Under the pieces are notes generated by a model. That model saw only the letters and a program-made list of their open reading frames with translations, did no database searches and had not been told where the DNA came from. A DNA stretch of 64,000 nt from Haloferula luteola (lineage in GTDB: Bacteria > Verrucomicrobiota > Verrucomicrobiia > Verrucomicrobiales > Akkermansiaceae): assembly GCF_014201715.1 (NCBI RefSeq), contig NZ_JACHFD010000009.1, positions 62,001-126,000 on the forward strand, written 5' to 3'. The position numbers and the translations under genes were made by a program. Below, piece by piece: positions 9,969 through 54,645 of the stretch. The first letter of the stretch is position 1. The number at the start of each line of letters is the position of its first letter.

Positions 9969-11498
9969 CTACTGGATGGGTGCGAGCAGACGCGATACCC
10001 GGACACCCACCTTGAAGGGCCAAGACTGGCGGTCGAGGTCTTCAGGCCGAGCCCGTCGGCTATGGGAAAAATCCTCGCGCAGCATGGCTTCTACCTGGCT
10101 GGCAAAGCCGACATCGCGAATGCCGACTTGGAGCTCGAAATTGAGACGGAACGAGCGGTTGTCGACATTGGCGCTACCGATGGTGGCGAAGTCGTCGTCC
10201 ACCAGCAGCACTTTCTGGTGCATGAATCCCTTTTGAAAGCGCCAGATCTGGACTCCCGCCATCTCCAGTTCCCTGAGGTAGGAATACGACGAGTAACGTA
10301 CAAGGCTGCTGTCGAACTGTTCGGGAATGAGGATGCGGACATCAACGCCCCGTCGACCGGCGAGTTGGAGGGCTTGGGTGATCGGTTCGTCCGGAACGAA
10401 ATAGGGGGTGGCGATCCAGAGTCGCTTCTGGGCTGCGTGAATGGCAGCAAGGTAGTAGAGCGAGCAGGTTTCCATCGGGTCGGCTGGCCCGGTAGGAATG
10501 GCGATGGCTTCCATGCCGTCGGGGGTGTCGGCTGCCTTGGATTCGATGTTCCAATCGAGGTGATCGAGGATTTCCCCGGTTGCCCAGTTCCAGTCTTCGG
10601 CGAAGGGGACCTGAAGGCTGGTGACCACGGGCCCGGTGAGGCGCATGTGAGTGTCTCTCCACGGGCTCAGAGTCGGATGGAGACCGAGGTACTCGTCGCC
10701 GACATTGTGTCCGCCGACAAAAGCGGTCTTTCCATCGACGACGACAAGTTTGCGGTGATTGCGGAAGTTCAGTTGGAAGCGGTTGGCACCGCCGACGAGG
10801 TTGAGGAATGACTGGGCATGCACCCCTGCTTGGCGGAGAGAATCGAGGTAGCTGGAGGAGAGACCGAGGCAGCCGTAGTCGTCGTAAAGGAGGTAGACTT
10901 GAACGCCCTCTCGGGCTTTGCGAGCGAGCCGCTCGGCGAGTCCTCGCCCAGTTTCATCGTCTCGGATGATGTAAAATTGGACGAGGATGTAGTTTTCTGC
11001 CTGATCGATGGCTTCGAAGATCGACTCGAAGGTGGGCGACCCATCGACAAGGATTTCCGCCTGATTGCCATAGGTGACAGGCAGCGACGATAGGTTGGAA
11101 AGGGTTCCCATCAAACCAGGCAGGTCGGTGCGGGCAACATCGGCGGTTTTGACCGACTCGATCAAATGCTCTGCCATGGGTCGGAGGTCCTTGATGCCGG
11201 CTTGGCGGGTTGTGACGTAGGTCTGAAAATCGTTGTCACCAAAGATCATGTAGGCGGGAACGGCGACCACTGGGAAGGTGTTCAGTGAAATGGCCCAGGC
11301 GATGGCTCCTTGGGAGGTGCGGGTATCCATCACTGCGGAGATCGACTGGAAGAAGCCGATGATGTGCATGGTGATGAGGAAAAGCCGGAGGAGGGGACGC
11401 CGTCGTGCGTGGGCAAATCCTAGCCATCGGGCTGTGCGGGGATGGTTGAGACTCAGCCAAGAGGCGAGGCGGCGTGCGTATACTCGGGGGCCATGCAT
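9969..11498 (-). CDS. cls: Cardiolipin synthase (phospholipase D superfamily)
   Basis: About 509 residues from ATG 11498; ATG 11522 is also possible, and the longer open frame reading into the PP2C gene is not real. Two N-terminal membrane segments (LFLITMHIIGFFQSISAV and IAWAISLNTFPVVAVPAYMIFG) are followed by two PLD domains with complete HKD motifs: HRKLVVVDGKTAFVGG in the middle and HQKVLLVDDDFATIGSAN near the C-terminus. The enzyme joins two phosphatidylglycerols into cardiolipin and glycerol at the inner membrane. It follows the PP2C gene on the same strand by 67 bases. Confidence 0.92.
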   Translation of the reverse strand: MHGPRVYARRLASWLSLNHPRTARWLGFAHARRRPLLRLFLITMHIIGFFQSISAVMDTRTSQGAIAWAISLNTFPVVAVPAYMIFGDNDFQTYVTTRQAGIKDLRPMAEHLIESVKTADVARTDLPGLMGTLSNLSSLPVTYGNQAEILVDGSPTFESIFEAIDQAENYILVQFYIIRDDETGRGLAERLARKAREGVQVYLLYDDYGCLGLSSSYLDSLRQAGVHAQSFLNLVGGANRFQLNFRNHRKLVVVDGKTAFVGGHNVGDEYLGLHPTLSPWRDTHMRLTGPVVTSLQVPFAEDWNWATGEILDHLDWNIESKAADTPDGMEAIAIPTGPADPMETCSLYYLAAIHAAQKRLWIATPYFVPDEPITQALQLAGRRGVDVRILIPEQFDSSLVRYSSYSYLRELEMAGVQIWRFQKGFMHQKVLLVDDDFATIGSANVDNRSFRLNFELQVGIRDVGFASQVEAMLREDFSHSRRARPEDLDRQSWPFKVGVRVSRLLAPIQ

Positions 11499-11565
11499 GA
11501 TGGGAAATCCCCTAACATGCATCCTCCGAAACACCGGGCAAGCGGAGGAAGTCCGCGCAAATCCC

Positions 11566-41559: not shown

Positions 41560-41640
41560 TGTCGGGGGAAACTTCCCCGAAATAATGGGCCGATGAAGTT
41601 TCGGGAATAGGGATCCCCATGCGGACTCCCAGTGGAGTCC

Positions 41641-42189
41641 ATGAGCGAATTCGAGGAATTGGTCGACGCCCATTACGAAGCGCTGTTTCGCTTCGCGCTG
41701 TCGCTGTCGAAAAACCGCGAAACCGCTGCCGACCTTGTTCAGCAGACTTTCTGCATCTGGGCCCAGAAGGGTGATCAGTTGCGAGATCGATCGAAGGCGA
41801 AGACCTGGTTGTTCACCACGCTGCATCGAGAGTTTTTGTCCCTAGCGAGGCGACGTCGAAGGTATGCCGACGGGGAACTCACGGAAGAGATCATCGAACG
41901 TACGGGAGCGGAGGAAGACGACTCGGAGCGCCAGATCGATGGTCAGCGAGCGCTGGAACTGCTCGGTGAATTGGACGAAACCTTTCGCGGTCCGATCACG
42001 CTGTTTTACTTGCAGCAGCATAGCTACAAGGAAATTGCGGAGATCCTTGGGATTCCTATTGGCACCGTGATGTCTCGGATTTCCCGAGCCAAGGACATGC
42101 TGAAACGCCGCATGACTCAGGAGCCGTCAAGCGCTCCCAAGAACATTCTCCAACTGCAACCCGAACACCTTCGCAAGCATCATGGATAG
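41641..42189 (+). CDS. ECF-type RNA polymerase sigma factor
   Basis: About 182 residues from ATG 41641. Region 2 is visible as ELVDAHYEALFRFALSLSKNRETAADLVQQTFCIWAQ with KTWLFTTLHREFLSLARRRRR. Region 4 is ALELLGELDETFRGPITLFYLQQHSYKEIAEILGIPIGTVMSRISRAKDML. This two-domain layout is that of group 4 (ECF) sigma factors, which direct polymerase to stress or envelope regulons. Its stop overlaps the next gene by 8 bases, the usual coupling of an ECF sigma with its anti-sigma factor. The regulon is unknown; a GGGGAA-AC-TTCCCC palindrome lies upstream. Confidence 0.92.
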   Translation: MSEFEELVDAHYEALFRFALSLSKNRETAADLVQQTFCIWAQKGDQLRDRSKAKTWLFTTLHREFLSLARRRRRYADGELTEEIIERTGAEEDDSERQIDGQRALELLGELDETFRGPITLFYLQQHSYKEIAEILGIPIGTVMSRISRAKDMLKRRMTQEPSSAPKNILQLQPEHLRKHHG

Positions 42190-43135
42190 GGAAGAAGCAC
42201 GATTCATCCTGCAGTCGTTCCGCCCCGACGGTGCGGATGTGACCGATGAACAGTTTGCCGACGCGTTGGCACTTGCTGCTGAGGATCCTGAATTGGGAGA
42301 CTGGCTGGCGCGAGAGCGGGCAAGCGACGCTGCCTTTGCTGCGGCTCTGGGCAGTGTGACCTTGCCTGCGGGACTTCGTGAAGAGGTGCTCGCCTGCATT
42401 TCAGCGACCGGTGAGGAATCGGTGGAGCTGTCGATGGAGGATCGAATTTTGGCAGAGGAAGTTCAGGCCTGGCGTCCCCCTGTTGGGCTGCGGGATGACA
42501 TCCTCCGTGCCATGACGCAGACGGAATCATCTCTGCCGAAGGTTCATGGCTGGAAGCGAATGGCTCTGCCTCTTTCCGCTGCTGCTGGGGTGGCCCTGGC
42601 TTTGGTGCTGACGCGGCCCACAGGGAAGGAGACGCCTGTTTTGACCGAGAATGACTCCTCTGTGGAGTCGAGCACGAGTCCTCTACCCGGTTTGCCAGTG
42701 GCGTTGGAAGCCGGTGCCACGGTGCCGATTGCGCACGTGGAAGACTCGGCCATTTCTGTTTTGGAGTCGCCAACGTTTTCTCTCGATTTGAGCAATCCGG
42801 ATCACGAGGTGCTGTTTGATTTCATCCGTCGATCGGGGCGAGTATGTCCTGGGGGTTGCGTGCCCAAGGGATTGGAGCGGGTTCCAGGTGTGGGATGCCG
42901 AAAACTCGATGTGGACGGCAAGGAAGGTGCGATCGTTTGCTTCAAGCGAGGCGAGGGCGATGTGGTGCACCTTGTCGTGTTCCGGGAACAGGATGTGAAA
43001 GGTCAGTTACCTACCTGCGGGCATCCGAAGCTCGCGCGACACGGCGATTGGTCAGTGGCTCGCTGGCAGCAAGATGGGCGGGTGTTTTTGCTCCTTGGCC
43101 ACATTCCTCGAGAGAAGCTCGATGAGCTGTTCTGA
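42182..43135 (+). CDS. Probable membrane anti-sigma factor
   Basis: A 317-aa protein overlapping the ECF sigma gene by 8 bases. The N-terminal 130 residues are acidic and helical (EEARFILQSFRPDGADVTDEQFADALALAAEDPELGDWL), a layout common in cytosolic anti-sigma domains of Verrucomicrobia and Planctomycetes. One membrane helix (MALPLSAAAGVALALVLT) sits around residues 122-139. The C-terminal periplasmic part has five cysteines, including VCPGGCVPKG, and ends in a beta-rich HGDWSVARWQQDGRVFLLLGH. No ZAS zinc motif (HxxxCxxC) is seen. Role is inferred from operon position and topology. Confidence 0.7.
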   Translation: MDREEARFILQSFRPDGADVTDEQFADALALAAEDPELGDWLARERASDAAFAAALGSVTLPAGLREEVLACISATGEESVELSMEDRILAEEVQAWRPPVGLRDDILRAMTQTESSLPKVHGWKRMALPLSAAAGVALALVLTRPTGKETPVLTENDSSVESSTSPLPGLPVALEAGATVPIAHVEDSAISVLESPTFSLDLSNPDHEVLFDFIRRSGRVCPGGCVPKGLERVPGVGCRKLDVDGKEGAIVCFKRGEGDVVHLVVFREQDVKGQLPTCGHPKLARHGDWSVARWQQDGRVFLLLGHIPREKLDELF

Positions 43136-44008
43136 TCCACGGCGCCGAACTCTCAACCGGTAGAATCGGAAACCAGTATCGGACGCGGAAAGCACGACTT
43201 TGACGTTTTCCAAGGAGTCGTGGAGGGGGTCTGGCGAGATCTCCAGTTGCTCCGAACCGAGGGGGTGCTGAGTCCAATCATGGAGGTCCTCGGAGGTTTC
43301 GAGAAACCAATCTGTGAGGTCGATGGCTTCGGTGAATCGATCGAATTGGAGGGCTTCAGCATCCAAAGAGATGGGGAGAGAATCAGGTTGGGCCGGATCG
43401 GTGCCAAAGGCATATTCGAGCAGTGCATTAAGGCCATCGAGATCCTTATCCGAGGCGTCCGGATGATTCAAAGGCAGGGCTTGCTTTAAGGGGCCTGAAA
43501 GCGTCGGAGAGGTCACGAGCGGATCGGTGATCGCAATGTTGACCGCATCAGGATTCTGCAAATCAGGAGAGCTGGTTTGACAGGAGAGCGTGCCGAAAGA
43601 AGGGAGAATCCAAGAGGCTGCGGAGAAGATCAAATGGGCCGATGCTCGCGAGAAGTCCCGGGCATCGAGCACCCAAATGTAGACTCGCTGACCTGCTTCG
43701 GTGACGTTGACGGGGACCGCTCCGGAGAAGGCTCCTGTAGAACCCTGCGGGGTGCCATTGAAGGTTCCGACGACCGTGGCGCCATAGGGGTGAAAGTGAG
43801 CGAGGAGATGAAAATGATCGCCTGCGGAGGCGATGACTTCTGCGACCTCAAGGTCAAAGGTGCCGATCATGACCTGACAGCCGATGGGAAGCTCCTGGCC
43901 GGTGGTTCCTCCTACGCCTCCTCCGGGTGCTTGGGCACCATAGCTAACATTCACCGAATCGGCGTGCAGGCATCCGATGGTGAGGAGGATCGGAAGGCGA
44001 TGGATCAT
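43052..44008 (-). CDS. Secreted beta-rich protein, last gene of the copper/haem operon
   Basis: A 318-aa protein starting at ATG 44008, which overlaps the stop of the 2401-aa gene (ATGA, 44005-44008), so translation is coupled. It has a short signal sequence, then a beta-rich N-terminal domain (VMIGTFDLEVAEVIASAGDHF to RVYIWVLDARDFSRASAHLIFS) with HFHLLAHFHPYG, a His-rich stretch. A DKDLDGLNALLEYAFGTDP calcium-type loop follows (about residues 183-201), then a beta domain ending FRFYRLRVRR. Its last 84 bases overlap the anti-sigma gene on the other strand. Function is unknown. Confidence 0.65.
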   Translation of the reverse strand: MIHRLPILLTIGCLHADSVNVSYGAQAPGGGVGGTTGQELPIGCQVMIGTFDLEVAEVIASAGDHFHLLAHFHPYGATVVGTFNGTPQGSTGAFSGAVPVNVTEAGQRVYIWVLDARDFSRASAHLIFSAASWILPSFGTLSCQTSSPDLQNPDAVNIAITDPLVTSPTLSGPLKQALPLNHPDASDKDLDGLNALLEYAFGTDPAQPDSLPISLDAEALQFDRFTEAIDLTDWFLETSEDLHDWTQHPLGSEQLEISPDPLHDSLENVKVVLSASDTGFRFYRLRVRRRGSEQLIELLSRNVAKEQKHPPILLPASH

Positions 44009-47000
44009 TCGGAGTCGGGGAGGTCGTAGCTGAAGGGTTGCTGTCGTTGCCACAAGCCGGGGTCGGTGAAGCGGAAGAGAAGCCACGCGCCACCCGCATC
44101 GATGGGCGTGGTGGCGGCATCCGTGGAATCGTTGCCGATCGCTCTCCATCCCTGTCCCCCCGGCAGCGAGTCATCTTTTCGGTAGTAGGGTTGGAATCCC
44201 CAGGGAGACTCCAAGTAAACGTGACTGTGATTGTCCCAATCGGGGCTCTCCAGAAAGAAGGATTCCAACCCCAAACTGCCGAGGGTGGCGTGCTCGACAG
44301 GAGTTTGACTGCCGACGAGCCGAGTGCCCTGGCGGATGACACGCACGCGGGGGCCAAGGATGACCTCCCCGTGAAACCAAAGATCAAGTGGAGATGACAC
44401 AGGGTGCCTCAGAGTGAATCCTTCACCCGGCTCGATGGCATGGTTGGAGGTATCCAGGAAGGGATCGGCCATGGAGCGCCAGCCTGTGCCTCCAAGCCCA
44501 CCACTGCGGAAATAGTAGTCTTGAAACAGTCCCTCGGAATCGGTGAAGGAGATCAAGTCGGCATCATCGGGTGTACCGGCAATGAGGCCCGACTCGTTAT
44601 AGGGGCCGAAGAGGGAAGCCAAGGTGGCCTGGGGGCGGACCTGATAGGTTCCGGAACCGGCGAGGGCGAGGTGATCGACAATCGCTTCATGGGCAGTGCC
44701 GAGGAACAGATCGTTCTCATCATTGCCCGTGATCATCCCGAGGGATCCTCTTGCGGATCCGGAAGTGATGTGAACCTCGTGGCCGAGCCATTGGTTGGGG
44801 GTCCAATGCGCCTGATCATCGGTCAAAGTACTGCCATCTGTCGTGGTGAACTGGCCTCCAGCGACGGCGTCGCGGGCGAAGGGAGGCGCGAAGAGTTTTT
44901 GATGCCCATCCACTGGCTGTTTCAGCCAACCAAATGGAGCGGAGCGGAGAGTTTCGCCGGCAATGTCCACTGCGAGCCGAAGAAACCCAGAATCGAAAGC
45001 ATACAAACTGGAACGCACCTCTTCCGTCCCATCGCCAACGTCGGAGATTTGAAGGTTCAGGATTTCCGGAGCGATGTCGCTGCCTCCGGATCCATTGAGA
45101 TCGGCGATGATGCCCCATCCGTTCTCCAGATCGAGAGTGCCTTCGAGCCAGTAGGATGCGCCGGTTGGCGTGGGCGTGGGTCGACGAAAAACGAGGTCAA
45201 ATCGTCGGGAACCATCGAGTTGAATGACGGCTTCCAGATGAGGGACGACCAGAGTTTGGTCGATAAATGAGTCGTGCTGGGGGTCGAGGCCAAGGGCAAA
45301 TTCCAGCCCATCGGAAAGGGAGTCTGAATCGGTATCGGTTGCCGGAATCCCACCCAGGTCATGGAGGAGGACCCATTCGTCCCAACGGCCTTTGTCGGGC
45401 ACAGGCGTGACTTGAAGGGACAGGAGGGAGGAAGAGGATCCCGCGGCAGTTGTCGCCACGAGAGTGCATTCTCGGGAGCTTTCGGGCGTGAGCGTTGCTG
45501 ATGTTTCTCCGAGAACATCCTCGCCGTTTAGAGTCAGAGAAATGAGGGGGAAATCGCCGGGCTCGATCGCCCAGGTGAGCAGGCTAGGTTGGCCTGCCAT
45601 CACGGGATTTGGGTTGGCTGAAAACTCAGTGATCGTCGGGAGGGCGGGAGCAGGGGCGGTGAGTTCGCTGTCTTCGATCTGAAGGAGATATTCGACCAGG
45701 TCGTCGAGATCTTGTGTGGAGATTTCGATACCGGCATGAGCTTGAATGGCGGAGTGGAGATCTGGGGCTGAACCGTCGTGGAGAAAAGGAGCGCCATCGA
45801 AGAGACCGCGGAGAGTGGGAGTGTCGATCCCGGTGAGGGGCTCTCCCAATCGTTGGCCGCTGCTCGGTTTTAGGGTACCGATGTCGTGCCAAGGAATGTC
45901 ACCGGAGTCCGTGAAATTCTCTCCTCCGTGGCACGATGCACATTGAGCCGTGAGGAAGACCTGCCTCCCGCGATCTCCAGCGGGGGTTCTCTGGCCATCC
46001 TGTTGCCGGTAGGGGCTGGAGGAGAACTGGGAAAGGGACGAGACATAGGCGGCCAAGGCATCGAGGTCGTCACTGCGTCCGGCGTTGGGTTCGCCCAGTG
46101 GAGGGTGGACGGCTCCGTCGATCAATCCGTCGCCGCTCGCCAGGTCGCGAATCTGGTTTTCGAAATCCTGAACTTCGTCGAAGTTTCCGGACCAATGGAG
46201 AGGGCCATGGCGGGTTCCGGCGCGCCCGCGGAGATCGATCGTATTGCGCAATCCTTCGCCGAATCCGGAGAAGTCCCACACGCGACCATCGTGTCCGCCA
46301 TCGTTGTGGCAGGATGCACAGGAGATATAACTTTCCCGACCGAGCCGGGTGTCCTGAGCGTCGTAGAAGAGTTGCTTGCCGCGCAGTAGCTGTGGGGAGA
46401 GAGCTTCGTTTTGGACCTCACCGAGCGTTGCCAGGTGGGAGGCTCGCGGGAGCCCAAAGTTGATGAGGTCGGCGACGGCGTGAAGCGAGACCGTGCGGCT
46501 CATGAAATTGTGGGTAAAAAGGACGCTGCCGTCTGGCGAGAGAGCCAGACCCTGGGGTGCGAAGCCGACCGGAATGCGGAAGATTTCTGCACCTCCGTAA
46601 ACGTCGATCACAGCGACTTCTCGTGAGCCCTCGAGCGCGACAAAGAGGAAAAGCCCAAACGGATCGAAAAGGGCCGTCGAGGGCATCGCGGCATTGTCGT
46701 GGTCGATTCGCCGTTCCGGAAGTTCGAGGTGCGTCGAGAGATCGACGACGGAGGTGATGGCTCGCAGGGTTGCGTCGTGGTTGAGTTGGAGACCATCGCG
46801 AGAGGTTCCCCGCTGAAGATTGTCTTGTTTCGAGGGAATCCAGGCGAAGTCCCCGGCCGGCGAAAGGACGGCCGGGCCGAGGTAGTTGGGGATGCCGCGG
46901 GCACCGCCGCCGGAGTCGGGTCGCTGGGACGGGCCGAGGAGGGTGGTTCCCAGAAGCGTGAGATCGTTGGCGTCGAGGCGTAGCAACTCACCTCCACCTT

Positions 47001-50000
47001 GATCGGGAGAGGGTTCGATGGTGGCCTCCTCGGGCACCGGAGGACTGATGTAGCGAGTGACGTAGACCGTCTTGCTGTCACCGCTGATGGAGAGGTGGCG
47101 GGGATGGGGGCCGATTTCGACAAGATCGAGGATCTCTCCGCTCGCTGGATCGATGCGGGCGACCTGCCCAGAGGCCTCGAATACGACGAACGCGGCTGAG
47201 CCATCGGGTGCAAATGCAAGGCCGAATGGCGCCACGCCGCGGGGCAGGTCAAGGGTTCGGGTGACGGTGAGAGCATCGGGATCAAGGATGGTGATCGTGG
47301 AATTGCCTGCGTTGGCGACCCACAACGAGCCATCGGGGGCGAAGGCAAGCGATCGGGGTTGGGGGCCGGTGGGAATCTCTGCCAAAATGGCCCCGGTGGC
47401 GGTGTCGAGACTGGAGACGGAACCGTTGTCGGGATTGACGTTCCAGCAACTTCCAGGGCGGACTTGGATGGCTTGGGAAACCGTGGGTCGGCCTTCGGTC
47501 GGGACGGGGCGAATGTTCTGGTAGAAAGTGGTGGTGGTCTCGGTGCCGTTGGCGTCCAGAGCGGTGAGGCTCACCCTATACCGCCCTGGGTGCGTGAAGG
47601 CATGTTGCGCGGAAGGAATGGAGGTCGTGATTTCCTCGGAATCATCGCCAAAGTTCCAGCGGTAAGTGAGATGGGTTCCTCCAGAGGCTTGGATGGAGAA
47701 ATGGACTGAGCTATTGACCCAGTCGACACCCGAGAGGGGAGCTTCGAGATTCGCCTCCGCATGGATTTCCCAGAAGAAGGATACCGAGGTGGAGGCCCCG
47801 CTGGAATCGGTCGCGGTGATCTCGACGGACATCGCCATCGGTGTCGTGGGAATGCCGTGGATTTCTCCCGTGGTGGGATCCAGGCTCAATCCTGCAGGCA
47901 GCCCGGTGGTCGAAAATGTGAGTTGATCGCCGTCGGGATCCGTCGCTTCCAACGGCAGGGTCAGGGCGGTGCCAACGGTGTGCGCTCGGTCGGCAATCGC
48001 CGGGATCTCCGGCACCCGATTGGCGGCAAATGGGGAGAAAAACGAACCGGCAATCGGAGTGATGTCGACTTCTTCCGGGCGTTTCCAAGCGAGGTGGATG
48101 TAGTCGCTTCCGGTGCCCTCGACGTGGAGGATTTCCACATAGTAGCGATGCCCAGCGACCAGCGGCAAGGGGCTCGATCGCTGAGTGGGGGAGTGATTCC
48201 AATCTTCGAGACCGGTGGGCTCTTGCGTGACTTGGGCGACCGTCAGTGCATGCTCGGGCAGATCATCCGGGCTGATTTTGAGTTCAGCGCGTTCGTCGGC
48301 GGAGAGGTAGAGCGTGTAGTCGCCGGTGGTTGGCGCGTGGAGATAGCCCCGGAGGCGCGAGCCATAGGCATCCCCGGAGTCAACAGCGACGGGGAAGCTC
48401 GTGATCTCTTCCCGGATGTCCGGATCATCGGGAAAGCCAGGATGATGGAGTAAGTCACTGAGCTCCGTTCCCGTGAGCGAGGTCCAAACTTCTCGAAGGA
48501 GCGATCCTTCACCTTGGCCCGGCAGTCGGATCGTCCACGTAAAGTGATCGCGATCGGTAACCACGCCGTTGAGGAGAATTTCGATCTGCACCGTGAATTC
48601 TCCGGTGGCGGAAGGCGTTCCGGAAACCACGCCGAGGTTGGCATCGAGGGTAAGGCCATCGGGGAGTCCGCTGGCTGCATAGGCAATCCCGGTGGAGTCT
48701 CCAGGCTGGAGAGGTAGGGCCAATTGGCTTTCCACGCCGACCACGCCGATTTGGTCGGTGAGAGCAAGAAGTGAGGGGATGCCGACGACGCGGCGCAGAT
48801 AAACCTCAGAATCTCCGCTTCGATCTGCGGACCAAATCCAGTGGGCGGGAGTGCCCGAGGGGAAACCGCGAACCTGGCCGCTCCAGGGTGGTGCGCCGAG
48901 TGCCCCATAGTCGGTGGCCTCCGCCCAGTTGGAATCGTCGAATCCAGGTTGTTGCCAGCCATCGGCAGCGATGGAACTCACCTTCCATCCGGTATCGGTG
49001 GAGAACGATTCACCGTCGACGGTGAATTGACCGATGACGCCAGCCAGTTCGTCCGCACTGCGGGCATGGATGGCCAAGGTGGCTTGCTTGCCAGCGGTGA
49101 AGGCTGTGCGCAGCGCGCGCGAGGCATCGGTTCCAATGGAAGTGAGTTGCCCATCCACGAAAAATTCGGCACGTGCCCCTGCCGCCATCACCGCTTCATT
49201 GTCAGGGCGGATGGATCGCAACTGAGTGGAGGGGATCACTGCCTGAGGCGTCCGTGGCGACGACCATTCGAGGTGGATGAGTGCATTGCCACCTGTTTCG
49301 CGATGCTCGAGGCTGAGGGATACAGGGACCCCTGCCTTCAAATCGATGCTGGCGGTCTGGATGAAATCTCCTGAGCCCCTTCCATTGTCGATCCATGTTG
49401 TGCCGTCGACGGTCAGTCGCACGCCTTCATCCGAAGTGACGTGAAAAGTGTAAGTTTCGCTGAACTCGGGAATCAACCAGCCGCTCCAACGGATCGACCA
49501 GGTGTCGGCGTCAAGGATTCCCGGGAGGGGCGTTTTCTCACCAAAGTCGAAGTGGATCTCGGGGTCGATGCGGGTGAATGCGAGGTCGGTGAAATTCGTG
49601 TCTGCGTAGTAGTTGGCGAGCAGTCCGCCGGTTGGTGCTTCGGGGGATTCTTTTACCTGAATGATGGATGCCGGGGAGTAGGTGTCATTCTCATCGAGAG
49701 CGAAGAGCATCCAGAATCCCGGAACCATGACATTGGCGTTCGGGTGGGCGACGAGTTGGTAGTGGCCCGGGGAGGGCTCGGCGAAGGGGATCGGGAGGAA
49801 CCGCTGATCGGTGGAAAGACCATGGGTCGTCGCCATCATCCGGATCATGGTGAAACGCTGAAGTCCGGGGGTGGCGGCGACTTTGAAGACGGAACCGAGC
49901 GTGACGGAATCCGGTGCGGACTGGATCTCCGGGCGAGTGGCGGATGGACCCTCTGTGGTGAAGAGGGAAGGCGGGGTGAAGAGTTGGGCATCGGTGTGAG

Positions 50001-51210
50001 TGGTCGGCGCCACCGGGTTCGAGACTTCAAAGCCTCCTCCACCGGAGAACACTCGTCCATCGGGCAGGAGAAGTGCGGTGGAATGGTAGTTGCGGGGGAC
50101 TGCCATGTCGGCGAGCGATCGCCAGGTGCCTGTGGCGGGGTTCCAGATTTCCGGGGTGAGGATGGAACCTTCGTCGCTGAATTTGAGGCCAGAGGTGTTT
50201 CCTCCGATGATCAGGACTTCGCCGGTGGGAAGCACGATCGCATTCTGAAAGCGCCGGGGGTGGACCATGGGCTGAGTCAGTGCGACCGTCGGCGGGGTGG
50301 TGTTGAGATCGACGGTGTAGCAGATGGTCGACGAGCTATTCGAGTTCGTGAACGAGGCGGATCCACCCGCGACGAGGAATTTTCCGGAGTCGTACATCAC
50401 GACACCTGCGTGCTTGGAATAGTATCCGCCCGGGACTTCGAGTTGGGCTGAGGTCCGTGATCCACGGCCATCTGGAGAGACCCAGTGCATCTCCCGCGTG
50501 GGCCCGAAGTGGAAGAGCCGCCCGTCCGGAGCGACGAAAAGGTAAGGCCACCAGTCGGACTCAAAACCATCGGCCCCGGCGACCGGCTGCCAGTTGATGC
50601 CGCCGAGGCGTTGCCAGGTGTCGGTTTCCGGGTGGTAACGTTCAGCGGTATTCGGCCCTCCGCTGCCGGAGACGGTGAAGACATCCCCGTCCGGCAGGGC
50701 GACGCTGGTTGGATACCAGCGGGGATCAAACATGCTTTGCACCTTGCCCCAACGGTTTTCCCGCCAGTCATAAGTCGAAGAATCTCGGGTGGTGAAACGA
50801 CCACCGGTGGTCTGCAGATTGCCATCGGACCGGAGCACGAGATGGGCGCAGAACATCTCGTGGTCGAGATGGAGGTCGCTGGAAAAGCTCCCGTCTCCAG
50901 GGTCCCAGAGGGCCCATTGGGTTTGATGCTTGGTGCCGGGCCAGTGGCTTGGTTCTTGTCCGGAAAAAGTCAGCACTTTGCCGGTCGGGAGGGCGGCGAC
51001 GGAGACGGGAGTGTGGGGCCATGGGAGGATGTCACTCCATTGTCCGGCCTGATCGGAAGGGCCGGGGGCTGAGGGCTGCCCGTCAAATCCCGGCAATAAT
51101 GCCGCGGCCTCCGCCCAGAAGGCATCGTCTTCTGCGTGGGAATTGGGGTCGGCGAGCACGGGGAGAATGCTGGCGACCACTGCGGGGAGCAAGAGGTGGC
51201 GAGGGGACAT
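44005..51210 (-). CDS. 2401-aa secreted radical copper oxidase-PA14-PKD-YVTN propeller-di-haem peroxidase fusion
   Basis: Signal peptide at 1-20. Residues about 60-520 are a galactose/glyoxal oxidase-type kelch domain plus the DUF1929 Ig-like cap. The Cys-Tyr cofactor pair (C121 in HEMFC; Y166 in RWYPTS) and copper ligands (Y375 and H376 in RNYHST; H463 in TTHGLSTDQR) are present; the stacking Trp in the GGSW position of fungal galactose oxidase is not. Next come PA14 (about 529-665), a carbohydrate-binding-like segment (675-805), a cadherin-like module (810-895), a second PA14-like module (900-1050), another cadherin-like module (1065-1150), PKD (1153-1233), a YVTN-type propeller (1250-1590), and a di-haem cytochrome c peroxidase-like domain with CASCH at 1631-1635 and 1757-1761. 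The last 550 residues have a calcium loop (DTDSDSLSDGLEF) and beta modules of Verrucomicrobial type. Confidence 0.88.
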   Translation of the reverse strand: MSPRHLLLPAVVASILPVLADPNSHAEDDAFWAEAAALLPGFDGQPSAPGPSDQAGQWSDILPWPHTPVSVAALPTGKVLTFSGQEPSHWPGTKHQTQWALWDPGDGSFSSDLHLDHEMFCAHLVLRSDGNLQTTGGRFTTRDSSTYDWRENRWGKVQSMFDPRWYPTSVALPDGDVFTVSGSGGPNTAERYHPETDTWQRLGGINWQPVAGADGFESDWWPYLFVAPDGRLFHFGPTREMHWVSPDGRGSRTSAQLEVPGGYYSKHAGVVMYDSGKFLVAGGSASFTNSNSSSTICYTVDLNTTPPTVALTQPMVHPRRFQNAIVLPTGEVLIIGGNTSGLKFSDEGSILTPEIWNPATGTWRSLADMAVPRNYHSTALLLPDGRVFSGGGGFEVSNPVAPTTHTDAQLFTPPSLFTTEGPSATRPEIQSAPDSVTLGSVFKVAATPGLQRFTMIRMMATTHGLSTDQRFLPIPFAEPSPGHYQLVAHPNANVMVPGFWMLFALDENDTYSPASIIQVKESPEAPTGGLLANYYADTNFTDLAFTRIDPEIHFDFGEKTPLPGILDADTWSIRWSGWLIPEFSETYTFHVTSDEGVRLTVDGTTWIDNGRGSGDFIQTASIDLKAGVPVSLSLEHRETGGNALIHLEWSSPRTPQAVIPSTQLRSIRPDNEAVMAAGARAEFFVDGQLTSIGTDASRALRTAFTAGKQATLAIHARSADELAGVIGQFTVDGESFSTDTGWKVSSIAADGWQQPGFDDSNWAEATDYGALGAPPWSGQVRGFPSGTPAHWIWSADRSGDSEVYLRRVVGIPSLLALTDQIGVVGVESQLALPLQPGDSTGIAYAASGLPDGLTLDANLGVVSGTPSATGEFTVQIEILLNGVVTDRDHFTWTIRLPGQGEGSLLREVWTSLTGTELSDLLHHPGFPDDPDIREEITSFPVAVDSGDAYGSRLRGYLHAPTTGDYTLYLSADERAELKISPDDLPEHALTVAQVTQEPTGLEDWNHSPTQRSSPLPLVAGHRYYVEILHVEGTGSDYIHLAWKRPEEVDITPIAGSFFSPFAANRVPEIPAIADRAHTVGTALTLPLEATDPDGDQLTFSTTGLPAGLSLDPTTGEIHGIPTTPMAMSVEITATDSSGASTSVSFFWEIHAEANLEAPLSGVDWVNSSVHFSIQASGGTHLTYRWNFGDDSEEITTSIPSAQHAFTHPGRYRVSLTALDANGTETTTTFYQNIRPVPTEGRPTVSQAIQVRPGSCWNVNPDNGSVSSLDTATGAILAEIPTGPQPRSLAFAPDGSLWVANAGNSTITILDPDALTVTRTLDLPRGVAPFGLAFAPDGSAAFVVFEASGQVARIDPASGEILDLVEIGPHPRHLSISGDSKTVYVTRYISPPVPEEATIEPSPDQGGGELLRLDANDLTLLGTTLLGPSQRPDSGGGARGIPNYLGPAVLSPAGDFAWIPSKQDNLQRGTSRDGLQLNHDATLRAITSVVDLSTHLELPERRIDHDNAAMPSTALFDPFGLFLFVALEGSREVAVIDVYGGAEIFRIPVGFAPQGLALSPDGSVLFTHNFMSRTVSLHAVADLINFGLPRASHLATLGEVQNEALSPQLLRGKQLFYDAQDTRLGRESYISCASCHNDGGHDGRVWDFSGFGEGLRNTIDLRGRAGTRHGPLHWSGNFDEVQDFENQIRDLASGDGLIDGAVHPPLGEPNAGRSDDLDALAAYVSSLSQFSSSPYRQQDGQRTPAGDRGRQVFLTAQCASCHGGENFTDSGDIPWHDIGTLKPSSGQRLGEPLTGIDTPTLRGLFDGAPFLHDGSAPDLHSAIQAHAGIEISTQDLDDLVEYLLQIEDSELTAPAPALPTITEFSANPNPVMAGQPSLLTWAIEPGDFPLISLTLNGEDVLGETSATLTPESSRECTLVATTAAGSSSSLLSLQVTPVPDKGRWDEWVLLHDLGGIPATDTDSDSLSDGLEFALGLDPQHDSFIDQTLVVPHLEAVIQLDGSRRFDLVFRRPTPTPTGASYWLEGTLDLENGWGIIADLNGSGGSDIAPEILNLQISDVGDGTEEVRSSLYAFDSGFLRLAVDIAGETLRSAPFGWLKQPVDGHQKLFAPPFARDAVAGGQFTTTDGSTLTDDQAHWTPNQWLGHEVHITSGSARGSLGMITGNDENDLFLGTAHEAIVDHLALAGSGTYQVRPQATLASLFGPYNESGLIAGTPDDADLISFTDSEGLFQDYYFRSGGLGGTGWRSMADPFLDTSNHAIEPGEGFTLRHPVSSPLDLWFHGEVILGPRVRVIRQGTRLVGSQTPVEHATLGSLGLESFFLESPDWDNHSHVYLESPWGFQPYYRKDDSLPGGQGWRAIGNDSTDAATTPIDAGGAWLLFRFTDPGLWQRQQPFSYDLPDSE

Positions 51211-51278: not shown

Positions 51279-53003
51279 TCAGGGTGGGGGTGTTTGGGCA
51301 AAGGCGGGATCGTCCAGTGTGCGGAGGAAGGCGGCGAGGTCGGCCTTGTCCTGTTCGCTCAAGCCGAGGCCTTGGTGCTTGGAGAGATTGGGATCCAGCG
51401 TGGGTGACGGATGAACGCCAGAGTTGTAGTGCTCGATGACCTCTTCGAGCGTGGCGAAGCGTCCGTCGTGCATGTAGGGAGCGGAGAGCCCGACGTTGCG
51501 CAGCGAAGGGGTTTTGAATTTGCCGAGATCGTCCTCCTTGCCGGTGGTGGCTGCGCGGCCACGATCGTTGGGAAAAGAGGAGTCGATACCGTTATTGTGG
51601 AAGTCGTGATCCGTGAACAAGGCTCCCCCATGACAATGGAAGCAATCGGCTCCGCGCAATTGGCGGGCGGGATCGTTTTCCGTGATGAAGAGCTGGAAGC
51701 CGCGTTTCTCGGCATCGGTGAAAGTCTGTTCTCCGCGCATGGCCCGGTCGAACCGTGAGTCCTGAGAGAGGAGGGAAAGAAGGTATTGCTCCAGGGCGAG
51801 GCCGAGACGTTCGCGAGACACTCCCGGGGAGCCAAATGCGGCCGCAAAGGCCTCGCCATAGGGAGCCTCGAGCTTGGCGGGAAGGCTTTCCAAAGCCTGG
51901 CCCATTTCGTCGGGGTGTTGAATGGGATCGAGCACCTGATCCCGAAGCCGAGTGGCGCGACCATCCCAGAAAAAACTTGGCGACCAAGCGAGATTGAAGA
52001 GGGCCATCGAATGGCGAGCCGGTGAGCGCCCGTCGATGCCGCGGCTTTTGGCCAGTGGATCGGAGAAGGCCGACTCGGGATGATGACAGGAAGCACAAGA
52101 AAGGGTGCCGTCGCCCGACAATCGGGGGTCGAAGAAGAGGGCTCTCCCTAAGGCCACGCCTTCCCGAGTGAGCGGGTTGTCCGCGGGTAGCTGGACCTGT
52201 GGGAAGCGTGCCGAAAGATCGAGACGGAGAGGCGTGGTGCCGGGGGGGGCATGCGTGGCCGGGGCCGCCGATGCGGACTGCCGGTAACCGGGGCGTGAGT
52301 CGAGGAAATGAAAAGCGTGCTGAGTGGCGCGAGCGATCTGTGGGGCGAGAGGATCTCCCACGCGTGAATGTGTGCTCGGGGGAGCTGTCTCCAAATCGAA
52401 ATCGAGCAAAGCATCCAGATCCAAGCCGAGGCGGAGGGTCTGGTCCGCTGCGGGGAACTTCACCGGAACGGTGATTTCCACATGCTGAGGGTCATTCCCG
52501 ATATGATAGGAAAAACCTCGATCGGCGGCGGATGGATTTGCCAAGCGACCCTCAAGGGCGAGGAAGATGAATCCCGATTGCCACTCCCAATGCAGGCGGT
52601 TGGCGGTGGGATGCAGTGGATCATCGACAGCAAAAAGCGCGGGATCGGCATGGTTGATTTCCGCCGGCGGGCCCAAGTGGAAGCGCACCGCTTGCATGGT
52701 TTCCGCAGGCAACCCGCGAAGAAGGGGCGAACGGTCCGCTTCGGTGGCACTGAAGAATCCGTCCCAGCGTGCAAGGGGCAGCCAACGGCCGTCGGCTCGT
52801 TGGAAGGTGATGTCAGATATCAGAAGGTCGGCGCGGGAGATGGCGACCCCGCCACGAACCTCCGAGGTCAAGGGGACATCCCCACGCAGAAAATCCACCT
52901 CCACCCGGATGTCCTTGGTTTCCTGCGCACGGAGAGACGCAGGAACCAGGAGAAGTGGGACGAGGGGAAAGAGTGGGAAAAACAGGCGGAGGGCGCCGGG
53001 CAC
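51279..53003 (-). CDS. MbnP-MbnH-like fusion: copper-binding domain plus di-haem peroxidase
   Basis: A 574-aa secreted protein (signal about 1-26). Residues about 30-205 match the MbnP family: DIRVEVDF at the start, SDITFQRADGRWLPL, then RFHLGPPAEINHADPALF and LHPTANRLHWEWQSGFIFLALEG (Trp139 and Trp141). MbnP proteins bind copper. Residues about 265-565 are a MauG/cytochrome c peroxidase-type di-haem domain, with CASCH at 303-307, CFHCH at 454-458 and PYMHDGRFATLEEVIEHYNSG at 509-529. In methanobactin operons MbnP and MbnH are separate proteins, and MbnH oxidises a Trp of MbnP to kynurenine. Here one polypeptide holds both. The gene lies 68 bases before the radical copper oxidase gene. Confidence 0.88.
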   Translation of the reverse strand: MPGALRLFFPLFPLVPLLLVPASLRAQETKDIRVEVDFLRGDVPLTSEVRGGVAISRADLLISDITFQRADGRWLPLARWDGFFSATEADRSPLLRGLPAETMQAVRFHLGPPAEINHADPALFAVDDPLHPTANRLHWEWQSGFIFLALEGRLANPSAADRGFSYHIGNDPQHVEITVPVKFPAADQTLRLGLDLDALLDFDLETAPPSTHSRVGDPLAPQIARATQHAFHFLDSRPGYRQSASAAPATHAPPGTTPLRLDLSARFPQVQLPADNPLTREGVALGRALFFDPRLSGDGTLSCASCHHPESAFSDPLAKSRGIDGRSPARHSMALFNLAWSPSFFWDGRATRLRDQVLDPIQHPDEMGQALESLPAKLEAPYGEAFAAAFGSPGVSRERLGLALEQYLLSLLSQDSRFDRAMRGEQTFTDAEKRGFQLFITENDPARQLRGADCFHCHGGALFTDHDFHNNGIDSSFPNDRGRAATTGKEDDLGKFKTPSLRNVGLSAPYMHDGRFATLEEVIEHYNSGVHPSPTLDPNLSKHQGLGLSEQDKADLAAFLRTLDDPAFAQTPPP

Positions 53004-53046: not shown

Positions 53047-54645
53047 TTAGGCGGGATGCATTTCAGTGTTTTCGATGACGAAGGACGCCGGGGTGTCGAT
53101 CGGGGAATGAGGCCGGGAAACGTACTCGACCGACCGATAGTCGGTGCGCCATTGGTCGGGACGGATCATGCAGCTGACGTAGCCACGGCGGTTGCCATGG
53201 TACTTCACGCAGGGATTCTCTGAAATGAGGTCGTCATAGTACTTGGGGCGCTCGACGCCGTCACCGCCGGAGGTGATCGAGGAGCAAACGAACTCGTGGC
53301 CGACGACCTTGTTGGATGCTGGGTCGAAATCGGTGAGCAGTTCGTTGGCCCAGTGGTTGTGGATATCCCCGGTGATCACGACCGGGTTGGAGATTTTCCG
53401 CTCGTCAAAAGCTTGAAGCAAGTGGCGACGTTCGAACTCGTATCCGGGCCATTGGTCCATGGAGTAGGCTTCCGCTTCTCCCGCCTTGCGATCGGCGCGT
53501 GCCATCATGACCTGTTGGGCCAAGACGTTCCAGGTGGTGTTCGAGGCAGTAAGCCCTGCCAGCAACCACTCGCGCTGCGCGTGGCCGAGGAGAGTGCCTT
53601 CTGGATTCATTTCGGCGGGGCTTGGAGGGCGAAGGCCGTCACCTTGGGGCTGGTCCGTACGGTATTGGCGGGTATCGAGAACGTGAAAATTGACCAGCTG
53701 GCCGTGCTGCAGGCGGCGGTAGAGGCTCATGCCGGGACCTTTGGGAACACAGGCGGCGCGAAGTGGCATGTGTTCGTAGTAGGCTTGGTACGCGGCGGCG
53801 CGACGTTGCAGGAAGGCTTCATGTTCGGCAGGACCTTTCTCCTCCGGGATATCGCCTGCGTAGTTGTTGTCGAATTCGTGATCGTCCCAGGTGACCACCC
53901 AAGGAGCCGCTTGATGCATCGCCTGTAAGGCGGGATCGCATTTGTATTGGGCATGGCGGCGGCGGTAGGCATCGAGGGTCTTGATTTCCTTCCCGGAGTG
54001 GCGGCGGACTTGGCCGTCGCGACTGGAACCCTCGTAGATGTAGTCGCCGAGGTGGAAGACGATGTCCGGGGCTTCGGCCAACATGTGTTCGTAGGCGTTG
54101 TAGAAGCCGGTCTCGAAGTGCTGGCAGGAGGCGAAGGCCATGCGCAACATCGAGGTTTGCGCTGCGGTTCGATCGGGCGACTCAAGAGTGCGGGAGCGAC
54201 CGATGGGGCTGATTTCCGCTCCCGCCTTGAATTGATACCAATACCAGCGGTCCGGACGCAGTCCGGTGACTTCGACATGGACCGAGTGGGCCCAGTCGCG
54301 TTGGGCCACGGCGGTGCCTTTGGCAACGACCTTGGTCATCGCTTCGTCTTCGGCGACCATCCAGTGGACTTGGATGGCGTCTTCGATCACTCCGCCATCG
54401 GCCAATGGTTGAGGAGCCAGTCGGGTCCAGATCACGAAGCCTTCATGATCCGGTTCTCCCGAGGCCACACCGAGTTGGAAGGGATAGTCGGTGAACGACG
54501 GATGGTGGGAGATGCGATCGGTGGCGGCTACGGCGCGGCCCGCGGTGAGGGCGAGGAGGAGGGAAGCGGAGCCGCCAATGAAGGAACGGCGGCTGTGAAG
54601 GGTGGGCTGAAGTGGGAACAGCGGTGGGTTGGACATGGCGGGCAT
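53047..54645 (-). CDS. phoD: PhoD-family alkaline phosphatase/phosphodiesterase
   Basis: A 532-aa protein with a Tat signal (SRRSFIGGSASLLLALTAG; the two arginines at residues 19-20). ATG 54645 or 54636 may be the start. The N-terminal PhoD_N domain (FQLGVASGEPDHEGFVIWTRLAPQP) is followed by the metallophosphatase core: FASCQHFETGFYNAYEHM, FHLGDYIYEG, VTWDDHEFDNNY, NFHVLDTRQYRTDQP and VVITGDIHNHW. PhoD enzymes use calcium and iron to release phosphate from monoesters and diesters outside the inner membrane. It lies 43 bases before the MbnP-MbnH-like gene on the same strand and could be cotranscribed. Confidence 0.92.
   Translation of the reverse strand: MPAMSNPPLFPLQPTLHSRRSFIGGSASLLLALTAGRAVAATDRISHHPSFTDYPFQLGVASGEPDHEGFVIWTRLAPQPLADGGVIEDAIQVHWMVAEDEAMTKVVAKGTAVAQRDWAHSVHVEVTGLRPDRWYWYQFKAGAEISPIGRSRTLESPDRTAAQTSMLRMAFASCQHFETGFYNAYEHMLAEAPDIVFHLGDYIYEGSSRDGQVRRHSGKEIKTLDAYRRRHAQYKCDPALQAMHQAAPWVVTWDDHEFDNNYAGDIPEEKGPAEHEAFLQRRAAAYQAYYEHMPLRAACVPKGPGMSLYRRLQHGQLVNFHVLDTRQYRTDQPQGDGLRPPSPAEMNPEGTLLGHAQREWLLAGLTASNTTWNVLAQQVMMARADRKAGEAEAYSMDQWPGYEFERRHLLQAFDERKISNPVVITGDIHNHWANELLTDFDPASNKVVGHEFVCSSITSGGDGVERPKYYDDLISENPCVKYHGNRRGYVSCMIRPDQWRTDYRSVEYVSRPHSPIDTPASFVIENTEMHPA

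Follow-up and report, generated by a model that had tools for sequence, protein, structure and literature searches.

The copper radical oxidases (CROs) of family AA5 are copper-dependent enzymes that form a radical cofactor from Cys and Tyr and give off H2O2; a peroxidase activates them in vitro, where horseradish peroxidase (HRP) is needed for full activity, and the Cys-Tyr bond itself is held to form from copper and O2 alone. What keeps these enzymes oxidised, and so active, in their natural setting is still an open question. To our knowledge, no characterised AA5 oxidase is fused to a haem domain. Here, such a fusion is described, the protein P0001 of Haloferula luteola (order Verrucomicrobiales), encoded in a 64,000-nucleotide stretch of contig NZ_JACHFD010000009.1 (the window), in which an AA5-type oxidase is followed by binding modules, a propeller and a two-haem module.

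Two described systems pair a CRO with a haem enzyme. In the fungal tandem of Colletotrichum and Magnaporthe, the peroxidase is reported to activate its partner oxidase (PMC9770985), and in Streptomyces the CRO GlxA is reported to need both Sco and the peroxidase DtpA for maturation, with DtpA consuming the H2O2 made by GlxA (PMC4736821). The Haloferula gene is like the fungal tandem in that oxidase and haem enzyme form a genetic pair, which in the fungi is also a functional one, but the fungal partners are two separate secreted proteins and the peroxidase is of class II, whereas P0001 is a single chain with a c-type di-haem module that would activate its oxidase only by analogy. The likeness to Streptomyces is that a CRO of bacteria goes together with a copper chaperone (SCO) and a haem peroxidase; there, however, the three are products of separate genes and the peroxidase is of the DyP type, whereas here the di-haem c part is fused and, in Verrucomicrobiota, MbnP-MbnH takes the place of SCO. 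By this comparison, the fusion looks like a third solution beside the fungal and Streptomyces partners, with the haem partner provided in cis. An earlier note on this DNA had proposed that the protein could detoxify peroxide locally; the proposal stands as one possible role and not as the sole one, given the activation described for the fungal pair (PMC9770985) and the maturation described for GlxA (PMC4736821).

The reading favoured here, to which about an even chance is given, is that P0001 is a secreted AA5-type CRO carrying its own haem redox partner, which would remove peroxide and/or keep the radical active. That the haem unit works together with the oxidase, and is no accident, is probable because the fusion recurs in many bacteria, often beside copper-loading genes. 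In a widespread bacterial family with built-in haem, and often with an adjoining copper-related gene, the question of CRO activation becomes testable in one polypeptide. The same family could give a role to the hydrazine-synthase-beta-gamma-like proteins of ordinary bacteria and to MbnP-MbnH outside methanotrophs, and, if the reading is true, self-activating oxidases would be useful biocatalysts. No description of a CRO/di-haem fusion was found in the open-access papers searched, a coverage outside which most subscription papers lie; the parts are already known, and in those papers no account was met of their union, its spread or its neighbours.

The oxidase half and the spread of the fusion

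P0001 is encoded in one frame of 2401 amino acids (aa), with an ATG start and no internal stops, and is probably a secreted protein, its signal peptide having been read by eye. A domain search of the full protein, as the earlier note had proposed, gives the oxidase, binding, propeller and CCP_MauG/Cytochrom_C parts in Pfam. Both the Kelch propeller and the GO-like E-set of the oxidase lie within residues 1-520 (GO-like_E_set at 426-519, 3e-17); the Pfam matches of the chain further include Glyoxal_oxid_N, Kelch and, in the propeller part, YNCE/Vgb. As for the linking modules, PA14, PKD and the YVTN propeller were recovered as the note had named them, while the module that it called cadherin-like is He_PIG in Pfam.

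Galactose oxidase 9g43 of the Protein Data Bank (PDB) aligns to residues 51-519 with an E-value of 1e-83, and the NCBI model for GlxA scores 151.7 bits, under its cut-off of 800. The five copper and radical residues, C121, Y166, Y375, H376 and H463, are complete, carry the numbers that the earlier note had given them and align with the AA5 ligands. In an alignment of 112 non-redundant relatives, 105 of the 106 that could be judged keep all five, the lone exception (L181) having Ala in place of the Cys. P0001 thus agrees with the AA5 oxidases (fungal galactose, glyoxal and alcohol oxidases, and Streptomyces GlxA) in domain order, in the five residues and in its best PDB matches, and residues 51-519 are, judged by sequence, a complete AA5-type copper-radical oxidase. 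One difference concerns Trp290, which we take to be the stacking Trp of galactose oxidase: this position is Gly in P0001 by the 9g43 alignment, and Trp in 11 of the 112 relatives.

The earlier note had allowed for a sequencing error joining two genes, for instance by a shift near 46.4 kb. A single alignment with genome G049 spans residues 4-1860 in one piece at 52% identity, and the same domain order, with oxidase and two-haem module in one secreted chain as the note had described, is found again in dozens of genomes; a chance arrangement or a join of two genes is therefore excluded. The P0001 gene is the single PF09118 match of its host genome. When P0001 was searched against 57 genomes (its own included), seven others had oxidase and haem module in one frame, and a survey of the order with PF09118 across 288 genomes gave 59 places in 48 genomes, all 59 of which were examined. 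The propeller-di-haem module lies in the same chain in 55 of the 56 assessable CRO genes, so that the architecture, whose absence from all relatives would have refuted the note, is common among them; the three remaining loci stop at a contig end ahead of the place where the module is expected. Both haem motifs fall within the same open reading frame (ORF) in 53 of the 59 loci, the other six being five frames cut by contig ends and L072 (8992-10608), the sole standalone PF09118 oxidase, a protein of 538 aa and of a more distant type. L072 has the top PF09118 score of all, yet scores 265 with the fused-type model against 350-867.

In a wider scan, genome_contigs was searched with the haem module as query, and the best 80 of 554 confirmed stretches were examined, so that more exist. 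Among these 80, the oxidase is in the same ORF in 73, six are cut at the 5' end, and one (L183) has an in-frame stop; L183 was considered as a natural split form and rejected, since it is one gene interrupted by a single in-frame stop. By title, the best 80 comprise 26 from Verrucomicrobiota, 52 from Pseudomonadota (Leucothrix, Steroidobacter, Rhizobacter, Ideonella, Aquabacterium, Leptothrix and others) and one metagenome-assembled genome (MAG) each from Chloroflexi and Planctomycetota, the last two of which could be mis-binned. The fusion also occurs on a Comamonadaceae plasmid, among the 5 of 380 plasmid records listed. Members scanned with Pfam share a core of oxidase, Ig and/or PKD, propeller and di-haem parts, and differ in their binding modules, which may be PA14, F5/8 type C or a legume-type lectin. 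In Rivibacter subsaxonicus, L175 (6800-14464, 2554 aa) has two pairs of haem motifs (at 1229, 1360, 2179 and 2310) behind one oxidase.

The descent of the module was addressed with a FastTree tree (local support values) of 121 propeller-di-haem modules, of which 101 have an oxidase, 7 are truncated or broken and 13 are CRO-less. One branch, with a local support of 100, parts all 13 CRO-less modules from the other 108. In a comparison of 98 proteins, distances between oxidases and between haem modules are correlated (r 0.68, the maximum of 2000 permutations being 0.205), and the median identity is higher for the haem module than for the oxidase (56% against 38%). The fusion can be regarded with high confidence as a conserved family, and the data are consistent with a single origin. 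The co-variation with the oxidase, the position on its own side of the branch and a His at +14 (discussed below) suggest that the module is adapted to the oxidase.

Relatives of the haem half and of the neighbouring genes

The haem half had been taken for a di-haem cytochrome c peroxidase (CCP), and a part of that assignment holds. Pfam matches CCP_MauG at 1611-1686 (30.1 bits, cut-off 25.6) and Cytochrom_C at 1746-1844, and the module has two CxxCH motifs, both CASCH, at 1631 and 1757 as the earlier note had placed them, together with the inter-haem Trp. The part that does not hold is the sixth ligand of haem 2, which is Met or Tyr in bacterial CCP/MauG proteins and predicted to be His1825 in P0001, and hydrazine synthase is the nearer relative. 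In a search of the PDB with the haem half, the gamma subunit of hydrazine synthase (5c2v_C) is top of 38 matches (E 1.6e-24), with CCPs next (4e-20), and the NCBIfam model of hydrazine synthase beta-gamma, NF052342, matches with an E-value of 1e-23 at 83.4 bits, under its cut-off of 1250. On this evidence the haem half is not a standard CCP; among named proteins, hydrazine synthase beta-gamma stands closest to it. Proteins of this kind are described as highly prevalent in environmental, non-anammox bacteria (PMC12758564), in a paper whose main text does not contain the words 'galactose oxidase'.

An AlphaFold model of residues 1236-1869 has a mean pLDDT of 88. For its propeller, VIA gives hydrazine synthase beta (5c2v_B) as the best match (Z 35.5, rmsd 2.0, 303 aligned residues), with an archaeal YVTN protein as runner-up within 1 Z (34.8), and Foldseek places the archaeal YVTN protein (1l0q_A) first and hydrazine synthase beta second; these fold searches listed propeller proteins, and the di-haem part was compared by sequence alone. 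Fusion and hydrazine synthase (5c2v) share a seven-bladed propeller followed by a di-haem module, with a second haem that is bis-His in the latter and predicted to be so in the former. They differ in that gamma-His144 of hydrazine synthase (PMC12758564) is Trp in the fusion family, and in that a CRO is attached only in the fusion.

A profile comparison of the haem module with its MbnP-MbnH neighbours (probability 99.6, E 2e-24) pairs W1673 of P0001 with Trp346 and H1825 with Tyr526 of the neighbour P0002. The Trp at 1673 is conserved in all 121 fused sequences, and the column of the sixth ligand of haem 2 is His in 120 of the 121 and Tyr in all 28 aligned neighbour MbnH halves. The 121 sequences include some contigs twice under two names, and they were picked for having two haem motifs, so that conservation of the motifs in this set is no independent count. 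At first, a His at haem 2 seemed peculiar to the oxidase fusion, being present at +14 in 120 of 121 fused sequences and in none of the 13 CRO-less relatives, but this was then weakened. Nine of the 13 have a His 17-22 residues past the His of an HDG-like motif (read by eye), and the distal His of hydrazine synthase, His332 (PMC12607021), falls at +21 when counted on the PDB alignment of P0001. Fused and oxidase-less modules may thus both be bis-His at haem 2, with only the position of the His separating them.

The genes beside the fusion, which had escaped the earlier note, are in many cases related to copper. MbnP is reported to bind copper by way of a kynurenine that MbnH produces, and the di-haem partner of MopE goes by the name SACCP. 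MbnP and MbnH have been described as two paired genes (PMC3621798); comparable pairs are MopE with its partner and CorA-CorB (PMC3621798, PMC3423442, PMC3912023), MopE being a secreted copper protein that is paired with a di-haem CCP and has a kynurenine copper ligand (PMC3423442, PMC3621798). The product of the gene upstream of the oxidase, P0002, has both halves, but in one chain, and it stands beside a CRO and not beside methanobactin genes. It scores under the NCBI equivalog cut-offs (227 against 363 bits for TIGR04039, 35 against 140 bits for TIGR04052). Four residues of its MbnH half, W346, Q356, E366 and Y526, which we take to be W93, Q103, E113 and Y294 of MauG, are invariant in all 28 aligned sequences of the 43 found. 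An AlphaFold model of MbnP-MbnH built from 12 sequences (mean pLDDT 69, pTM 0.46) is too poor for a fold search.

At 31 of the 59 order loci an MbnP-MbnH gene lies less than 400 bp upstream on the same strand, and L107 brings the count to 32 of 59. Of the 31, 22 show a 4-nt overlap between the two genes, and one, L086, has just the haem half of MbnP-MbnH on its contig. For L113 the gene is 2.3 kb upstream, and five loci have less than 600 bp of upstream sequence. As judged by eye, MbnP occurs in 46 of the 48 oxidase genomes and in 81 of the 240 others (Fisher p 9e-17, uncorrected for kinship). An MbnP match is present in 127 of the 288 order genomes, and most of the rows listed are in open frames of about 550-700 aa.

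In Pseudomonadota, the neighbour is of another kind. Among the best 80 of 554, an SCO gene lies less than 600 bp away in 15 of the 52 Pseudomonadota loci, and near 14 of the 42 that have at least 700 bp downstream; of the 15 genes, ten were scanned and all ten pass Pfam SCO1-SenC. The SCO genes were counted by BLAST clusters, as a regular-expression motif scan missed most of them and was used for mono-haem genes only. Three gammaproteobacterial loci of the 80 (L127, L165 and L189) have a separate CCP/MbnH-like di-haem gene of 442-513 aa less than 150 bp from the fusion. That two lineages have different copper-related genes beside one and the same fusion is taken as the best indication that the copper site is assembled and functional. 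Copper loading would be aided by MbnP-MbnH in many of the Verrucomicrobiota and by SCO in part of the Pseudomonadota.

A proposed mechanism and its alternatives

In the mechanism proposed here, the oxidase would act on an alcohol or aldehyde group, which probably belongs to a glycan that the variable binding modules hold in place (PA14, F5/8 type C, lectin), and would thereby make H2O2. By analogy with hydrazine synthase, where gamma-II, a bis-His haem, is proposed to pass electrons from a cytochrome to the reactive haem gamma-I (PMC12607021), haem 2, with its predicted His/His ligation, would transfer electrons and haem 1 would be the site of reaction. The oxidant of haem 1 would be a small molecule, for which H2O2 from the same chain is the obvious candidate, and use of peroxide by the haem half is plausible. 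The module might react with the oxidase's own peroxide and so remove it, and/or provide the oxidation by one electron through which the copper-tyrosyl radical stays active. The two can both hold and are not exclusive, and the choice between removal and activation is the least certain point of the proposal. More tentative is a bolder form, in which the di-haem centre would contact the copper-radical site directly and set its redox state, making the protein a self-activating relay, or even a copper-radical dehydrogenase that passes substrate electrons to cytochrome c.

Several observations weigh against a built-in peroxide-using partner with dedicated copper loading. At the place of the catalytic Glu of CCP/MauG, counted from W1673 and Q1686, there is Leu1696 in all 121 fused sequences. 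This placing is uncertain, since it was made by counting only, the profile alignment is gapped there, and the model loop 1670-1679, which includes H1672 and W1673, has a pLDDT below 50, so that the haem-1 pocket is weakly modelled; three invariant acidic residues, E1679, D1682 and E1684, lie near the counted place. The di-haem subunit of hydrazine synthase is proposed to reduce NO and not peroxide (PMC12607021), and in vitro DtpA gave GlxA no gain over HRP (PMC4736821, section 3.3). No adjoining MbnP-MbnH gene was found at 21 order loci with at least 600 bp of upstream sequence (including the standalone L072), some of which adjoin unrelated divergent genes, and SCO was not found beside 37 of the 52 proteobacterial loci, some of them without flanks. 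As of 2013, PMC3621798 had no data tying close MbnP homologues to copper.

Of the other explanations, an outlet for electrons survives best, though it is improbable. Electrons would leave the reduced copper site through the di-haem module, by way of haem 2, to cytochrome c, and the enzyme would act as a dehydrogenase with less need of O2. In its predicted bis-His ligation, haem 2 resembles the haem that transfers electrons in hydrazine synthase gamma (PMC12607021), and there is no obvious peroxidatic Glu. A gene for a small mono-haem protein, possibly an electron carrier, adjoins the fusion in five loci (the plasmid included) and lies 1.6 kb off in L193, a total of just 6 among 81 scanned loci. 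The direction of electron flow in CCPs, and the one proposed for hydrazine synthase, is inwards to the reactive haem, and the low potential of gamma-II, about -310 to -330 mV (PMC12607021), would make a haem of that kind ill suited to accept electrons from a high-potential copper-radical site. The six mono-haem loci (L022 at 11006-11518, L148, L187, L190, L193 and L202) are all proteobacterial, and in the four proteins whose strings extend far enough, the haem motif is followed by an RRGGP-like stretch. L161 was dropped as a further case, being probably a chance ORF (81 aa).

Little less credible, and likewise improbable, is the explanation that the haem module handles another small molecule (NO and O2 are examples), or that it serves as a sensor or as a binding chassis on which the oxidase is one of several interchangeable heads. 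The 13 CRO-less relatives (L030-L042) have the same propeller-di-haem part with other domains in front (Big_5 in 8 of the 8 scanned with Pfam, LVIVD in 6 of 8), hydrazine synthase is the nearest named relative, and RoxA-like cytochrome Pfam matches occur at haem 2 in relatives. The fused modules, however, are set apart from these relatives by a supported branch and by a His at +14 that is absent from all 13, and they co-vary with the oxidase. Of 17 other genomes from the window's genus, 6 have strong matches of the oxidase-less kind, and no ORF among those picked in the surroundings of the 13 oxidase-less genes has two haem motifs.

A role in maturation is less probable again. Here, the haem module or the adjoining MbnH would form the Cys-Tyr cofactor or assist in its formation (and likewise modify a residue of MbnP), with no part in turnover. 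The bond is, however, generally held to need only copper and O2, and the fusion is retained where MbnP-MbnH is not adjacent. In favour of such a role are the upstream position of MbnP-MbnH at over half of the order loci and the four MauG-type residues kept in its MbnH half, as well as the kynurenine copper ligand of MopE, which has a di-haem CCP partner (PMC3423442, PMC3621798), and the requirement of GlxA for DtpA (PMC4736821), whereas MbnP is not markedly like MopE or CorA in sequence (PMC3621798). Finally, a degenerate passenger, in which the haem module would be a structural or adhesive leftover with no redox work, is very improbable, for although module shuffling is common in large adhesin-like proteins, both haem motifs are kept in every order locus except the standalone oxidase and the five cut frames, and the haem module is better conserved than the oxidase.

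Feature coordinates and further neighbours

Table 1. Coordinates, in the window, of the fusion gene, its parts and the adjoining genes.
Feature	Position	Strand	Basis
P0001 gene, copper-radical oxidase / propeller / di-haem fusion	44005..51210	-	ORF list, translation, Pfam, PDB matches
Probable signal peptide, about residues 1-21	51148..51210	-	judged by eye
Galactose-oxidase-type (AA5) copper radical oxidase domain, residues 51-519	49654..51060	-	Pfam, PDB 9g43
C121, Cys of the Cys-Tyr cofactor	50848..50850	-	alignment of relatives
Y166, Tyr of the Cys-Tyr cofactor	50713..50715	-	alignment of relatives
Y375-H376, axial Tyr and copper ligand His	50083..50088	-	alignment of relatives
H463, copper ligand His	49822..49824	-	alignment of relatives
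PA14 domain, residues 529-661, variable binding module	49228..49626	-	Pfam 7e-27
GLEYA/PA14-like region, residues 952-1035	48106..48357	-	Pfam
He_PIG Ig-like domain, residues 1071-1149, better of two stretches	47764..48000	-	Pfam
PKD domain, residues 1165-1230	47521..47718	-	Pfam
Seven-bladed YVTN-type propeller, residues 1246-1584	46459..47475	-	AlphaFold model, VIA
Di-haem module, residues 1598-1867	45610..46419	-	Pfam, PDB and NCBIfam matches
Haem 1 site CASCH, residues 1631-1635	46306..46320	-	sequence motif
W1673, at the inter-haem Trp position of CCP/MauG	46192..46194	-	profile alignment
Haem 2 site CASCH, residues 1757-1761	45928..45942	-	sequence motif
H1825, predicted sixth ligand of haem 2	45736..45738	-	profile alignment
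C-terminal region weakly like TIGR02597, residues 2108-2364	44119..44889	-	28.9 bits, cut-off 50 not reached
P0002, MbnP-MbnH fusion, 574 aa, 68 bp upstream of the oxidase gene	51279..53003	-	Pfam, NCBIfam
MbnP domain, P0002 residues 45-201	52401..52871	-	Pfam PF20243, 71.6 bits, cut-off 27
MbnH/MauG-like di-haem domain, P0002 residues 273-572	51288..52187	-	Pfam, 175.3 bits, cut-off 25.6
Possible third operon gene, small secreted-looking protein, family unassigned, overlaps the fusion 3' end by 4 nt	43052..44008	-	start chosen by eye

Pfam was run on four proteins of the window. For the longer ORF that covers the possible third operon gene (43052-44149), no Pfam match was found. Upstream of P0002 and on the same strand, a PhoD-like phosphatase gene (Pfam) occupies positions 53047-54645 of the window. 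On the plus strand, at 41632-43135, a sigma-factor-like gene (185 aa) is followed by a possible anti-sigma factor (by eye), and this pair faces the 3' end of the fusion gene.

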